DNA of 64,000 nucleotides from the NCBI GenBank assembly GCA_937927775.1, contig CALBEF010000040.1, positions 20,957 through 84,956 on the forward strand, given 5' to 3'. The position numbers and the translations under genes are program-made. Positions 29,323-34,325 of this stretch are shown one piece after another (the first letter of the stretch is position 1; every line of letters starts with the position of its first letter). The notes beneath the pieces were generated by a model, which did not search any database, was not told the origin of the DNA, and saw only the letters and a program-made list of their open reading frames with translations. The DNA comes from an uncultured Anaerolineae bacterium. Its GTDB lineage: Bacteria; Chloroflexota; Anaerolineae; J036; Brachytrichaceae.

Positions 29323-29350
29323 TTGACAAACAGCGAGCGCGCTGTACAAT
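29323..29350 (+). promoter_or_regulatory. Sigma-70 type promoter of the 67-aa protein gene
   Basis: A perfect TTGACA (29323-29328) is followed after 16 bp by TACAAT (29345-29350), in an A/T-rich patch. It predicts an untranslated leader of about 125 nt before the small ORF. Confidence 0.8.
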
Positions 29351-29484
29351 CCCCGGCGTGAGCTTACGTTTAGTTTTGAGAGATTTTGGATTCCGTTAAG
29401 CAAAGATAAAGACAATCCGGGGGTGGCAATTGAGCTGGTCATCAGGCTGGGTTATTGCCAAACCTGGCAAGAAGGAGATGCATC

Positions 29485-29688
29485 ATGGATTTCTATAATG
29501 TGATGGAGATGGGTCGGATTCGGCAGGCTGAACTGATTCGTGAGGCGCAGGCCTGCAATCGCCTGGGCGACCAGGGGCTCAGCGCCTTTGATCGCGCAGT
29601 CATCTGGTTCAGCGAGCAGATGATTGTCCTCGGCCGCGCGCTTCAGCAGCGCTACGTGATGGGGCTGTCGAACGCAGAACGCGCGTGA
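29485..29688 (+). CDS. Small conserved-looking protein of unknown function (67 aa)
   Basis: The ORF starts with ATG 8-9 nt after AAGGAG and encodes an amphipathic, helix-rich 67-residue protein (MDFYNVMEMGRIRQAEL ... FDRAVIWFSEQMIVLGRALQQRY). It has no membrane segment or cysteine motif apart from one Cys. The gene is a self-contained unit with a consensus promoter, a 125-nt leader, a strong ribosome binding site and a strong terminator. That suggests an abundant product. The ATG at 29485 is preferred over the ORF start at 29455 on ribosome binding site position. I do not recognise the family. Confidence 0.75.
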   Translation: MDFYNVMEMGRIRQAELIREAQACNRLGDQGLSAFDRAVIWFSEQMIVLGRALQQRYVMGLSNAERA

Positions 29689-29741
29689 TGTGCCCCGGGC
29701 GCGCCGGTTGTGCGCGCTATTCACGTTCACCCGATCATCAG

Positions 29742-29776
29742 GCCCCCGGCTTCATAACGAAGCCGGGGGCTTTTTT
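29742..29776 (+). terminator. Intrinsic terminator after the 67-aa gene
   Basis: A perfect 12-bp G+C-rich stem GCCCCCGGCTTC / GAAGCCGGGGGC with a 5-nt loop is followed by six T residues. Confidence 0.95.
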
Positions 29777-29852: not shown

Positions 29853-29880
29853 TTGACAAAAAAGAATCCAAATCTACAAT
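29853..29880 (+). promoter_or_regulatory. Promoter of the DUF2089/SHOCT gene cluster
   Basis: A perfect TTGACA (29853-29858) and TACAAT (29875-29880) are separated by 16 bp in an A-rich stretch. It has the same elements and spacing as the promoter at 29323. It is the only strong promoter seen before the five-gene cluster that starts at 29985. Confidence 0.8.
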
Positions 29881-29984: not shown

Positions 29985-30395
29985 ATGCAGATGCTGCCAG
30001 CTCAATGCCCGCTGTGCGCGGGCGAGATAACGGTTACCCGGCTGTACTGTCCGGCGTGCGATGTGACGATCGAAGGACGCTTTGCTGTCGGGCAATTTCT
30101 GCGCCTGACCCCCGAGCAACTCGCGTTTGTCGAGACATTCGTGCGTTGTGAAGGCAAGTTGTCGCGCATGGAGGGCGAGCTTGGGTTGTCGTATCCCACG
30201 ATCCGCAGCCGGCTGCACGATGTCATTCGCGCGCTGGGCTACGAGCCGGGCAGGGAAGAGCCGCCGCCCTCGCCCAGGATCAGCGACGAAGAGCGGCTGC
30301 GCATTCTCGATGCTTTGAACCAGGGACGCATCTCGCCGGAACAGGCAATGCTGATGTTGCAGGGCGGCGCGCCCGGCAACGACGAAGAGGAGTAA
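29985..30395 (+). CDS. DUF2089-family zinc-ribbon/helix-turn-helix regulator
   Basis: The 136-residue protein begins with a zinc ribbon (CPLC ... CPAC) and continues with a helix-turn-helix-like region (FVRCEGKLSRMEGELGLSYPTIRSRLHDVI). This is the DUF2089 architecture of putative DNA-binding regulators. It ends in a SHOCT-like helical hairpin, DEERLRILDALNQGRISPEQA, shared with three downstream proteins. It is the first gene of a tight cluster (6 bp to the next) and a likely transcriptional regulator of it. GGGAGG lies about 13 nt upstream of the ATG. Confidence 0.85.
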   Translation: MQMLPAQCPLCAGEITVTRLYCPACDVTIEGRFAVGQFLRLTPEQLAFVETFVRCEGKLSRMEGELGLSYPTIRSRLHDVIRALGYEPGREEPPPSPRISDEERLRILDALNQGRISPEQAMLMLQGGAPGNDEEE

Positions 30396-30401
30396 ATCCA
30401 A

Positions 30402-31535
30402 ATGGAACAACAAGTGCTTCCGACCGGAGACAACCCCGTCATCGTGGTCGAGACGGTTCACGGCGACCTGCACGTGATGGGTTGGGAGCGCGCCGAGGTG
30501 TTGGCCCGCGCGCGCTCGGACAGCGATCTCAGTCTCGATCAGCGCGGCGATCAGATCATGCTGACCTGTCACGACGACTGCGTGCTGCGCGTGCCGCAGT
30601 CTGCCAGCCTCGATCTGGTCAACGTGATGGGCGATGCGCGCGTCAGGATGGTGCGTGGCGCGCTGACCGTTCGCCGGGCGGGCGATCTCGCCGTTCATGG
30701 CGCGGGACCCACGACCGTCGAGACGGTCAGCGGCGATTGTGTCGTCAAGGCGATTGCCGGCGACCTGCAAGTGAACCGGGTTGGCGGCGATCTGTCCGCG
30801 CGTGACGTTCAGGGGCAATTCGTTGCCACTGCCGTAGGCGGCGACATTCGCATCGGGGGGATTGCCGGAATGGCAACCGCATCTGCGGGGGGCGACATCT
30901 CGCTCAACCTGGCGCCGACGCCCGGCCAAAAATGCCGGTTCACCGCAGGGGGCGACATCAGCGCGCGCGTGCCCGAGACCGCCAATGCGCGCTTCAGCAT
31001 GACCAGCCGCGCGGACGCTATCCGTGTGCGCATCCCCGGCGTGCCCAACGACGCCGGCAAGGGTGTCCGGCAGGTTACGCTGGGGGATGGCAGCGCCGAG
31101 ATCATCCTGACCGCCGGCGGCGACATCTCGTTATCCAGCGATAGCGCCGGCCAGAACGTGGACGACCTGGGCGCGCGTCTCGACGCAGAGTTTTCGCGCA
31201 TGGGCGACCTCATCGCCCAGCGCACACAAGAAGCTGCCCAGCGCATGGCGTCGCGCATCGAAGCCAAAGCGCAGCGCGCGGCTCGCAAGGCCGAGCGCAT
31301 GGCCCAGCGCGTCGCGCGCGAGGCCGAACAGCAGTCGCGCGGCTGGATGCGGCATGGACACCCCTTCGAGGGTCGCCACTTTGCCGGCCCCTTTGCGCCG
31401 CCGCCTCCGCCCGGCGCGCAGCCCGTCACGGATGAAGAGCGACTGGCGGTTCTGCGCATGGTCGAACAGAAGAAGATCACCGTGGAGCAGGCGGAGAAAC
31501 TGCTTGCCGCGCTCGAAGGAAAGGCGCAATCCTGA
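30402..31535 (+). CDS. DUF4097-type beta-repeat protein with C-terminal SHOCT-like motif
   Basis: The 377-residue protein starts with a beta-strand-repeat region (about 1-250) rich in V-x-x-V-x-G-D patterns (VVETVHGDLHVMGWERAEV, VETVSGDCVVKAIAGDLQV, TAVGGDIRIGG). This is typical of the adhesin-like DUF4097 fold. A Lys/Arg/Ala-rich coiled coil (about 285-320), a Pro-rich linker, and a terminal SHOCT-like hairpin (DEERLAVLRMVEQKKITVEQA) follow. No signal peptide is seen. It resembles YvlB/LiaX-type envelope-stress proteins with domain order reversed. It lies 6 bp after the DUF2089 gene. Confidence 0.8.
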   Translation: MEQQVLPTGDNPVIVVETVHGDLHVMGWERAEVLARARSDSDLSLDQRGDQIMLTCHDDCVLRVPQSASLDLVNVMGDARVRMVRGALTVRRAGDLAVHGAGPTTVETVSGDCVVKAIAGDLQVNRVGGDLSARDVQGQFVATAVGGDIRIGGIAGMATASAGGDISLNLAPTPGQKCRFTAGGDISARVPETANARFSMTSRADAIRVRIPGVPNDAGKGVRQVTLGDGSAEIILTAGGDISLSSDSAGQNVDDLGARLDAEFSRMGDLIAQRTQEAAQRMASRIEAKAQRAARKAERMAQRVAREAEQQSRGWMRHGHPFEGRHFAGPFAPPPPPGAQPVTDEERLAVLRMVEQKKITVEQAEKLLAALEGKAQS

Positions 31536-31689
31536 GTCAGGATAATCGCTGAACCCGCGCCTGGGCCGAACTCATGTTCCCTCAAGAGAGGGGCGACGGA
31601 TTGAAGTGAGCGCCGGAGGATGGGGGCGCCGGATAGCCGGCGGTGGCGGCAGCGCAGAATCATCCGGCGCCACAGAGGCAACAGGAGCC

Positions 31690-33024
31690 ATGACCATGCA
31701 ATCGGCAACCGAACGATGGGATGAGACCAACTGGAAGCGGCGGTTTTTCACGATCTGGACGGGGCAGGCGTTTTCGCTGTTCGGCAGCAATCTGGTGCAA
31801 TTTGCGCTGGTGTGGTGGCTGACCTCCACGACCGGCTCTGCGACGGTGCTGGCGCTGGCGACGCTGGCGGCGATGCTGCCCCAGATTCTGCTCAGCCCGA
31901 TCGCGGGCGCTGTGGTGGATCGCGGCAGCCGCCGGCTGATCATGATGGCGGCCGACAGCGCGATTGCGCTGTTGACGCTGGGTCTGGTGATCGTGTTTGC
32001 GAGCGGGTCGGCGCAGATATGGCACGTCTACGTGATCATGTTCGCGCGCTCGGCGCTGGGCGCGTTCCACTGGCCGGCCATGTCCGCTTCCACGTCGCTG
32101 ATGGTGCCACAAAAGCACCTCTCGCGCGTGGCTGGATTGAACCAGGCGTTGTATGGCGCAGTCAACATCATTGCGCCGCCGGCCGGCGCGCTGATGCTGG
32201 CGGCGCTGCCCATGCACCAGGTGCTGGCGATCGATGTGGTCACGGCGCTGATGGCGGTGTTGCCTCTGGCGTTCATCAGGGTGCCGCAACCCGGGCGGTC
32301 TATTGAAGCGCGGGAGGCAGGGCCGACCAGTGTGACACAGGACATGAAGGCCGGTTTGCGCTATCTGCTGGGCTGGCCCGGCCTGCTCGTCGTCTGTGTC
32401 ATGGCAGCCGTCATCAACTTCATCGTCAATCCCGCTTTCGCCCTGCTGCCGATCCTGGTGACCAGGCACTTTGGCGGCCAGGCGCTTGAATTGGGCTGGA
32501 TCAATTCGGCTTACGGCGTCGGCGTGATCGCCGGCGGGCTTGCGCTCAGCGTGTGGGGCGGCTTCAAGCGCCGGATCGTGACCTCTATGTTCGGTCTGGC
32601 CTTCATGGGTGTCGGCACGCTTGTCATCGGCGCAGCGCCGGCCAACGCCTTCGTCATTGCGATCGCCGGCATGGCGCTGGCCGGGATCATGAATCCGATC
32701 ACGAATGGCCCGCTGTTCGCCGTGCTTCAATCGACAGTGGCGCCGGATATGCAGGGGCGGGTCATGTCATTGCTGAACGCCTTTGCCACAGCCATGTCGC
32801 CCCTCAGTCTGTTGGTGGCCGGCCCGCTGTCCGACACACTGGGCGTGCAGGTCTGGTACATCGTGGGCGGCATTGCCTGCATCCTGCTGGCAGCCGTTGG
32901 ATATCTGACGCCTGCCGTAGCCAACCTCGAGCGCGGGAGACCCGGCACAGCGGCGCCGATTGCGGCTGCGTCATCTGCGACGCCGCTCGATGGCCCGGCT
33001 CAGTTCGAGCCGGTTGCCAAATGA
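31690..33024 (+). CDS. MFS transporter (drug-exporter-like)
   Basis: The 444-residue protein begins with WKRRFFTIWTGQAFSLFGSNLVQFALVWWLT, the N-terminus typical of MefA-type/enterobactin-exporter-like MFS proteins. It has about 12 membrane helices and an MFS loop motif variant (DRGSRRLIMMAAD). ATG 31690 with GGAG just upstream is preferred to the ORF start at 31606. Its position inside the DUF2089/SHOCT cluster suggests export of an envelope-active compound under that regulator's control. The substrate is unknown. Confidence 0.88.
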   Translation: MTMQSATERWDETNWKRRFFTIWTGQAFSLFGSNLVQFALVWWLTSTTGSATVLALATLAAMLPQILLSPIAGAVVDRGSRRLIMMAADSAIALLTLGLVIVFASGSAQIWHVYVIMFARSALGAFHWPAMSASTSLMVPQKHLSRVAGLNQALYGAVNIIAPPAGALMLAALPMHQVLAIDVVTALMAVLPLAFIRVPQPGRSIEAREAGPTSVTQDMKAGLRYLLGWPGLLVVCVMAAVINFIVNPAFALLPILVTRHFGGQALELGWINSAYGVGVIAGGLALSVWGGFKRRIVTSMFGLAFMGVGTLVIGAAPANAFVIAIAGMALAGIMNPITNGPLFAVLQSTVAPDMQGRVMSLLNAFATAMSPLSLLVAGPLSDTLGVQVWYIVGGIACILLAAVGYLTPAVANLERGRPGTAAPIAAASSATPLDGPAQFEPVAK

Positions 33025-33087: not shown

Positions 33088-33891
33088 ATGGATCATACGA
33101 CAGACGGGCCGCGCATGGCAATTCTGGAGCGCCTGGAGCGCGGCGAGATCACCGCCTCTGAGGCAATGGCATTGCTCGACGCTCCGCCAGAGATTTCGGT
33201 TCCGGCGGGTGTTTTGGACGAGCGCGATGAGTTGCTGGACAGGATCGATCGCGGCGAGATCACTGCCGGCGAAGCCTTGCGCCGGCTCGGCGTAGACGAC
33301 TGGGACGATGCTGCCGGCGCAACCGGCGCGCAGGATGCGTTGAGCGCGGTGGCCGGCGCGACGCCAGGCATTGCGCCCGACGCAGGGACGTTCGCGGCGG
33401 AAGAGCTTGCCGGCATGCGCGCGTCACATCATGAACCGCCTCCACCCCTGCCAGAAATCGAGTCGTGGCGGCGCTGGTATCAAATCCCGCTTGCGGCCGG
33501 CATCGCCGCCATTGTGCTGGGGACGCTGCTAATGTACTCCGCGCTGCAAGCATCGGGCATCGGCTTCTGGTTCCTGTGCGCCGGCGCGCCGGTCATGTTG
33601 GGCATTCTGCTGGCAGTGCTGGCCTGGCTCAGCCGGAAAGGCCCCTGGCTGCACGTGCGCGTGAGCAATATGCAGGGAACCTGGCCGAGGACTCTGGCCA
33701 TCAGCTTTCCGTTGCCGGCGCGCGCAACAGCCCGGGCGTTACGCGCGTTCGCTCCCCAGCACCTGCCACTGCGCGGCATGTCGATGGACGATCTGGTTGA
33801 AGGTTTGAGCTCCGCATCGCCGGATGCCCCGTTCTACGTCGATGTTGTCGAGGGCAAAAACGGTGAGCGCGTGCAGGTGTTCATCGGTTGA
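33088..33891 (+). CDS. Membrane protein with two SHOCT-like motifs
   Basis: The 267-residue protein has two consecutive SHOCT-like hairpins (ILERLERGEITASEAMALL and LLDRIDRGEITAGEALRRL). An acidic linker and two membrane helices (about 130-180) come next. The C-terminal domain (WLHVRVSN ... DVVEGKNGERVQVFI) is clearly related to that of the next gene's product. CACAGGAGA precedes the ATG. The topology puts the motif and the C-terminal domain on the same side of the membrane. Its function is unknown, and a sensory or scaffolding role is inferred only from context. Confidence 0.78.
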   Translation: MDHTTDGPRMAILERLERGEITASEAMALLDAPPEISVPAGVLDERDELLDRIDRGEITAGEALRRLGVDDWDDAAGATGAQDALSAVAGATPGIAPDAGTFAAEELAGMRASHHEPPPPLPEIESWRRWYQIPLAAGIAAIVLGTLLMYSALQASGIGFWFLCAGAPVMLGILLAVLAWLSRKGPWLHVRVSNMQGTWPRTLAISFPLPARATARALRAFAPQHLPLRGMSMDDLVEGLSSASPDAPFYVDVVEGKNGERVQVFIG

Positions 33892-33938: not shown

Positions 33939-34325
33939 ATGGCTTCTGTTGAAGAACGCATGAAGGTGCTCAAAATGATCGAAGAGGGCAAGATCACTGC
34001 CGAGGAAGGCGCAAAGCTGCTGGCCGCGCTGGACATGGGGCCGCGACCGGGCAAAGGACCTGTGCCGCCACCGCCGCCGGTTGGGGCGGGGCGCTGGCTG
34101 CGCATCCGCGTCACCGACACAACAACGGGCCGGCCCAAAGTCAATGTGACCATCCCGATGGGACTGGTGAATGTCGGCCTGAAGATGGGCGCGCGCTTTG
34201 CCCCGGAATCTGCAAGCCTGGATTGGCAGCAGATCGCCGACGCCATCAACTCCGGCATGATCGGAAAGATCATCGACGTGGTGGACGAGCAGGACGGCGA
34301 GCGCGTCGAGATTTTTGTGGAGTAG
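33939..34325 (+). CDS. Soluble SHOCT-like domain protein
   Basis: The 128-residue protein consists of an N-terminal SHOCT-like hairpin (ERMKVLKMIEEGKITAEEGAKLL), a Pro/Gly linker and a C-terminal domain (WLRIRVTD ... DVVDEQDGERVEIFV). The C-terminal domain matches that of the preceding membrane protein. It looks like a soluble version of its neighbour. A GGAG lies 9 nt before the ATG, and a single remnant of the R2 repeat (GTGACTCAATGG) lies just upstream. It is the last gene of the cluster and converges on the beta-CASP RNase gene. Confidence 0.78.
   Translation: MASVEERMKVLKMIEEGKITAEEGAKLLAALDMGPRPGKGPVPPPPPVGAGRWLRIRVTDTTTGRPKVNVTIPMGLVNVGLKMGARFAPESASLDWQQIADAINSGMIGKIIDVVDEQDGERVEIFVE

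Follow-up and report, generated by a model that had tools for sequence, protein, structure and literature searches.

Introduction

In the passage of PMC11237479 that deals with DUF2089, four-gene contexts combining a DUF2089 protein with a toastrack protein are proposed to serve PSP/Lia-like membrane signalling. DUF2089-toastrack systems are widespread, and no tested mechanism for them was found in the literature that we searched; a small protein repeatedly preceding the regulator provides a concrete experimental handle on them. We here describe a gene for a 67-aa protein in a stretch of 64,000 nucleotides (hereafter, the window) from an uncultured Anaerolineae bacterium (contig CALBEF010000040.1). 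As in the contexts outlined in that passage, a tripartite DUF2089 protein is followed in the window by a toastrack-like/SHOCT protein, but the window adds a small gene in its own transcription unit. The term "small protein" has no match in the main text of PMC11237479, and its DUF2089 passage names no such gene.

Three other described systems resemble parts of this arrangement. The HAAS-PadR pair (PMC11237479) also joins a helical signalling partner to a transcription regulator (wHTH) in membrane-stress contexts, and small DUF1127 proteins of the YjiS type, which act by binding a sensor kinase (PMC12501420), provide a precedent for small helical proteins proposed to work through protein-protein contact with a regulator. 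The 67-aa protein, nonetheless, has no Pfam match at E up to 10, the DUF1127 and SHOCT models included; its motif and length differ from those of DUF1127, and its partner is DUF2089 instead of PadR. Furthermore, the bawcin and enterocin DD14 clusters encode a DUF2089 protein beside leaderless peptides of 43-48 aa (PMC10707071, PMC7332713), and share with the window a small helical product, without a leader, next to a DUF2089 gene.

Architecture of the locus

The promoter, the AAGGAG sequence, the 67-codon ORF and the terminator that the earlier note had described in 29323-29776 are all present (Table 1). The terminator hairpin (29740-29772) comprises 14 bp, 10 of which are G-C pairs, with a folding energy of -29.7 kcal/mol. 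The window contains three exact matches to TTGACA-N15-18-TANNAT, where shuffles would yield 0.08. These promoter, Shine-Dalgarno (SD) and terminator signals are consistent with strong expression of the small gene. On the opposite strand, we also noticed a promoter-like TTAACA-N17-GATAAT (29283-29255), directed back into the upstream gene and partly kept in the congeneric species G002 (G and L numbers are our handles for genomes and loci), from which an antisense transcript is possible.

The DUF2089 gene starts 296 nt 3' of the small gene on the same strand, and the terminator and promoter P2 lie between the two genes both in the window and in G002. The DUF2089 protein matches PF09862 with E=9.6e-22 and reaches 26.4 bits for PF22746, the cut-off of which is 27. 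The next protein scores 17.3 bits for PF13349, below the cut-off of 22.9, and its position and SHOCT-like C-terminus agree with a toastrack protein.

Table 1. Coordinates of the small gene, its signals and the downstream cluster in the window
Feature	Position	Strand	Basis
AT-rich tract 5' of P1	29247..29322	+	54/76 identical to G002
Promoter P1, TTGACA-N16-TACAAT	29323..29350	+	16-nt spacer seen in sequence
Untranslated leader (start site inferred)	29357..29484	+	~128 nt given a start near 29357
Shine-Dalgarno AAGGAG	29472..29477	+	7 nt 5' of ATG
67-aa ORF, predicted small two-helix protein	29485..29688	+	homologues; dN/dS; AlphaFold2
Intrinsic terminator	29740..29776	+	hairpin and T run; 33/37 identical in G002
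Promoter P2 of the DUF2089 operon	29853..29880	+	same hexamers and spacing as P1
DUF2089 protein: zinc ribbon, HTH, SHOCT-like C-terminus	29985..30395	+	PF22747, PF09862 over cut-off
Toastrack-like (DUF4097) protein, C-terminal SHOCT-like domain	30402..31535	+	PF22746 over cut-off
MFS transporter, next cluster gene	31606..33024	+	PF07690 E=1.7e-32
SHOCT-like domain and hydrophobic segments	33088..33891	+	PF22746 over cut-off; membrane location by eye
Second small SHOCT-like protein	33939..34325	+	PF22746 44.5 bits

Conservation in close relatives

The earlier note had named the lack of homologues in close relatives as an argument against the gene, and such homologues exist. The full-length protein is 67% identical in G002, where the gene is found between the same neighbours with its promoter, SD and terminator at the corresponding places. 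The 46 nucleotide substitutions separating the two ORFs are distributed as 9, 13 and 24 over codon positions 1, 2 and 3 (binomial p = 0.006), and the NG86 estimate of dN/dS is 0.196/0.626 (~0.31), which indicates that the ORF is under purifying selection. Given the homologues, the bias of substitutions to third codon positions and the retention of promoter, SD and terminator in G002, the 67-aa ORF is, as judged from the comparison of sequences, a genuine gene. In a second congener (G001), the C-terminal part of the gene is located at a contig end and followed by a terminator, and no DUF2089 is found behind it within the available 1.4 kb. Another genus of the family (G005) also has a member, located among different genes; the leader region of this homologue contains a long inverted repeat (L005, 1350-1460) resembling a small MITE-like mobile insertion.

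Conservation is uneven along the transcription unit. The window and G002 agree at 78% of the nucleotides within the ORF, at 89% within the terminator and at 92% (12/13) from the SD to the ATG; the position of P1 is retained in G002 as TTGACA-TATACT, and the stretch immediately preceding the AT-rich tract is identical at 11 of 34 positions. The length of the leader is close to the 125 nt given in the earlier note, whereas the regulatory role suggested for it there fits poorly with the comparison: its first ~40 nt are 69% identical, and its 3' two thirds are 47% identical. Conservation of about 70% is instead found in those ~40 nt after the promoter and in the 76 nt before it. The fold of the leader has z = -1.1, no fold is common to the leaders of the window and G002, and no Rfam family matches the leader or the locus at the gathering threshold; we thus rejected the leader as a riboswitch. 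The best Rfam match below the threshold, NsiR1 (E=0.01), covers the terminator.

A family of small proteins

Besides the lack of Pfam matches, the 67-aa protein has no relative in NCBIfam; a profile search of the PDB gave nothing below E = 0.29, a search of PHROGs gave no match above noise, and plasmid and phage records, queried with single sequences, gave none at all. Profiles built stepwise from close homologues (A2, A3, A5 and A6), in contrast, gathered divergent proteins of 55-90 aa. With E ≤ 0.001, the A6 profile has matches in at least 62 of the 400 genomes sampled from the phylum. A limited number of candidates was scored per genome, so that the true figure is probably higher, whereas a small number of the lowest-scoring matches may be spurious. 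We rejected one match in Methanomicrobiales (L009), which is antisense to a CDC48-type ATPase gene, and, by eye, several weak profile matches (L020, L022, L026 and L029-L031) that fall within long or stop-containing frames.

The members share a plan in which an RxxELLREAxxxRL-like motif characterizes the first helix and an LGxxLIxxGxxLqxR-like motif the second, the two helices being joined by a linker that varies. In the window protein, which scores 63 bits against A6 (a profile that includes it), the N-terminal motif is present as GRIRQAELIREAQACNRL and the C-terminal xGxxLIxxGxxLqxR-like motif as FSEQMIVLGRALQQR, with S replacing the first G. AlphaFold2 predicts helices at residues 3-26 and 34-66 with a linker between them, at modest confidence (pLDDT 70.7, pTM 0.37). 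The protein has a pI of 6.1 and a net charge of 0, and its hydrophobic moment reveals no exceptional amphipathicity (p = 0.25 against shuffles; 4 of 34 members are below p = 0.02). The product is best explained as a small protein, soluble or peripherally associated with the membrane, with two predicted helices and a flexible linker. As far as the profiles can tell, it belongs to a rapidly diverging family of small two-helix proteins not represented in any library searched; the absence from Pfam and NCBIfam is probably due to the shortness and fast divergence of its members, and the family and its genomic context appear to be new.

Linkage to DUF2089

Of 199 genomes sampled from the class, 137 have DUF2089. 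Among 70 members of the family gathered by profile irrespective of context, 17 are accompanied by a DUF2089 gene on the same strand at a distance of up to 1.6 kb (over 1 kb for 4 of them) and none by one on the opposite strand, compared with ~0.02-0.03 of 70 expected by chance in our own estimate, which takes DUF2089 to occur about once per genome and treats the genomes as unrelated. A6 includes some members first met beside DUF2089: four of the 17 linked members (the window, G002, L244 and L245) are training sequences and the remaining 13 are outside the training set. Eight linked loci (the window, G002, L025, L047, L089, L091, L092 and L093) were found by profiles or single queries free of members derived from context. 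In the reverse direction, when 130 DUF2089 loci were scanned with A5, matches of at least 15 bits were obtained at eight loci on the same strand and at none on the opposite strand, the small gene being undetected at most of these loci. A toastrack gene without DUF2089 is located beside four further members of the 70. The presence of toastrack does not distinguish DUF2089 loci with the small gene (17/17) from those without it (102/110; p = 0.6).

The gene order of the window, with the small gene directly 5' of DUF2089, recurs in G002 and at loci of further genera within the family (L091-L093). At 16 loci outside the window's genus that have the small gene 5' of DUF2089, a TTGAC promoter precedes its ATG by 73-114 nt in 15 cases and by 240 nt in one, an SD is visible for nearly all of these genes, and the small gene and DUF2089 overlap by 4 nt at one extreme and are 318 nt apart at the other. 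The small gene at these loci is the predicted first cistron of the DUF2089 operon. Six loci (L025, L092, L147, L192, L199 and L207) have a 4-nt stop/start overlap between the two genes, an arrangement that would permit coupled translation. In other arrangements, the small gene is 3' of DUF2089 (L111, L114 and L161), flanked by a SHOCT-tailed gene on one side and an MFS gene on the other (L281), or 3' of a toastrack gene scoring over the Pfam cut-off (L262).

Members away from DUF2089

About three quarters of the 70 members are not beside DUF2089. Indeed, three genomes (G008, G013 and G017) possess the small gene and have no DUF2089, and the small gene can therefore work without it; in genomes lacking DUF2089, the small gene mostly has its own terminator. 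At L033, L043 and L264, the neighbours are WYL-type regulators identified by eye. We also noticed that the small gene is located directly behind a gene whose large product carries an ArsR-type HTH at its C-terminus at L250, L254 and L019 (Pfam-tested for L254 only) and is followed by an MFS transporter gene at L250 and L254. At L260 and L282, it is found 36-38 nt 3' of the gene for RsgA, a ribosome-assembly GTPase, identified by Pfam at L282 and by similarity to L282 at L260. In one genus (g7; L081-L088), furthermore, the small gene is mostly monocistronic, the encoded proteins have a conserved C-terminus ending in LAAE, and CTTGTC-type repeats upstream are conserved (ACTTGTCAAAACTTGTC), which are possibly the site of a distinct regulator.

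Possible functions

We tentatively propose, with a probability of roughly 0.45, that the 67-aa protein is an adaptor or co-regulator of a DUF2089-toastrack system of the membrane-stress type. The small protein would be made in step with this system and would contact the DUF2089 regulator or the toastrack/SHOCT complex at the membrane, tuning a response of the membrane-stress type; in the window's genus, its gene is placed with a strong promoter and a terminator of its own just 5' of the operon rather than inside it. This adaptor role is supported by the same-strand adjacency to DUF2089, the promoter spacing and 4-nt overlaps at the linked loci, the kept gene order, the purifying selection, the two predicted helices, the PSP/Lia-like proposal and the DUF1127 precedent. 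It is conceivable, albeit doubtful, that the role extends to the whole phylum: the fast-evolving two-helix family would then supply DUF2089-toastrack systems with an additional dedicated part, a diffusible or membrane-surface signal adaptor whose translation is coupled to that of the regulator in several lineages. The adaptor role is weakened by the many DUF2089 loci at which no small gene was detected, by the large share of members away from DUF2089, by the lack of DUF2089 behind the small gene in G001 within the 1.4 kb available, and by the modest confidence of the structure model. Two observations speak against exclusivity for DUF2089: the gene persists in genomes that lack DUF2089, and different genes flank many members.

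Alternatively, the small protein would have a general function of its own, for example as a stress-induced or nucleoid- or membrane-associated helical protein, and its gene would simply occur often beside regulators and transporters, DUF2089 being just one of several loose neighbourhoods. The WYL-type, ArsR-type plus MFS and rsgA neighbours found elsewhere would fit such a protein, as would the mostly separate termination in genomes without DUF2089; the same-strand placement immediately upstream of DUF2089 and the 4-nt overlaps in many lineages, however, exceed a loose neighbourhood, and we consider a general function rather unlikely. A long leader, a strong terminator and a small ORF 5' of a regulator would also be features of a regulatory leader peptide, or of a locus that serves mainly as an sRNA or riboswitch and the product of which is irrelevant. 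Selection nonetheless acts on the protein, the helices of the family are conserved across the phylum, and the Rfam and folding results on the leader point the same way, which makes such a locus improbable. Hardly more attractive, and if anything a shade less so, is a peptide resembling the leaderless bacteriocins, for which the DUF2089 protein encoded alongside would be the accessory factor, by analogy with the bawcin and enterocin DD14 clusters: while the neighbourhood is alike, the enterocin peptides have a pI of about 10, whereas the window protein is non-cationic, longer and without a match to any bacteriocin family, and no counterpart of the clusters' ABC-transporter and PH-domain genes is present among the genes scanned here. 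A chance ORF, finally, would account for the lack of matches in family libraries but neither for homologues that keep SD, promoter and terminator nor for the codon-position bias, and is very improbable indeed.

Promoters of the small gene and of DUF2089

The earlier note had also pointed out that the promoter of the neighbouring SHOCT cluster has the same hexamers and spacing as that of the small gene, from which shared regulation was suggested. The identity itself was found (P1 and P2 in Table 1). The exact pattern TTGACA-N16-18-TANAAT, however, occurs at 27 sites genome-wide against none for the reversed pattern, and 10 of the 27 have the N16 spacer and TACAAT; the hexamers of P1 and P2 are the ordinary sigma-70-type consensus of this genome, and sharing them is hence no proof by itself of shared regulation. 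It is the gene order in many relatives that supports the link to the SHOCT cluster, and better so than the argument from the hexamers. When the bases outside the hexamers were scored against the promoters that precede DUF2089 in relatives, P1 and P2 ranked first and second of the 27; with a uniform background, the same scoring gave -9.6 for P1 and +7.0 for P2, P1 losing most of its score without the correction for AT content. Shared control of P1 and P2 is accordingly possible, the scoring being only suggestive.

A promoter of the TTGAC-N16-18-TANNNT type is present within 450 nt upstream of 105 of 124 DUF2089 genes, compared with 8 on the opposite strand. In the class, the DUF2089 promoters (L105-L234; 29853-29880 in the window) have a common form, which may mark an autoregulated regulon and consists of an AT-rich upstream tract, TTGACAAa, a spacer of mostly 17 nt and TATAAT, which a TG often precedes at a distance of one base.
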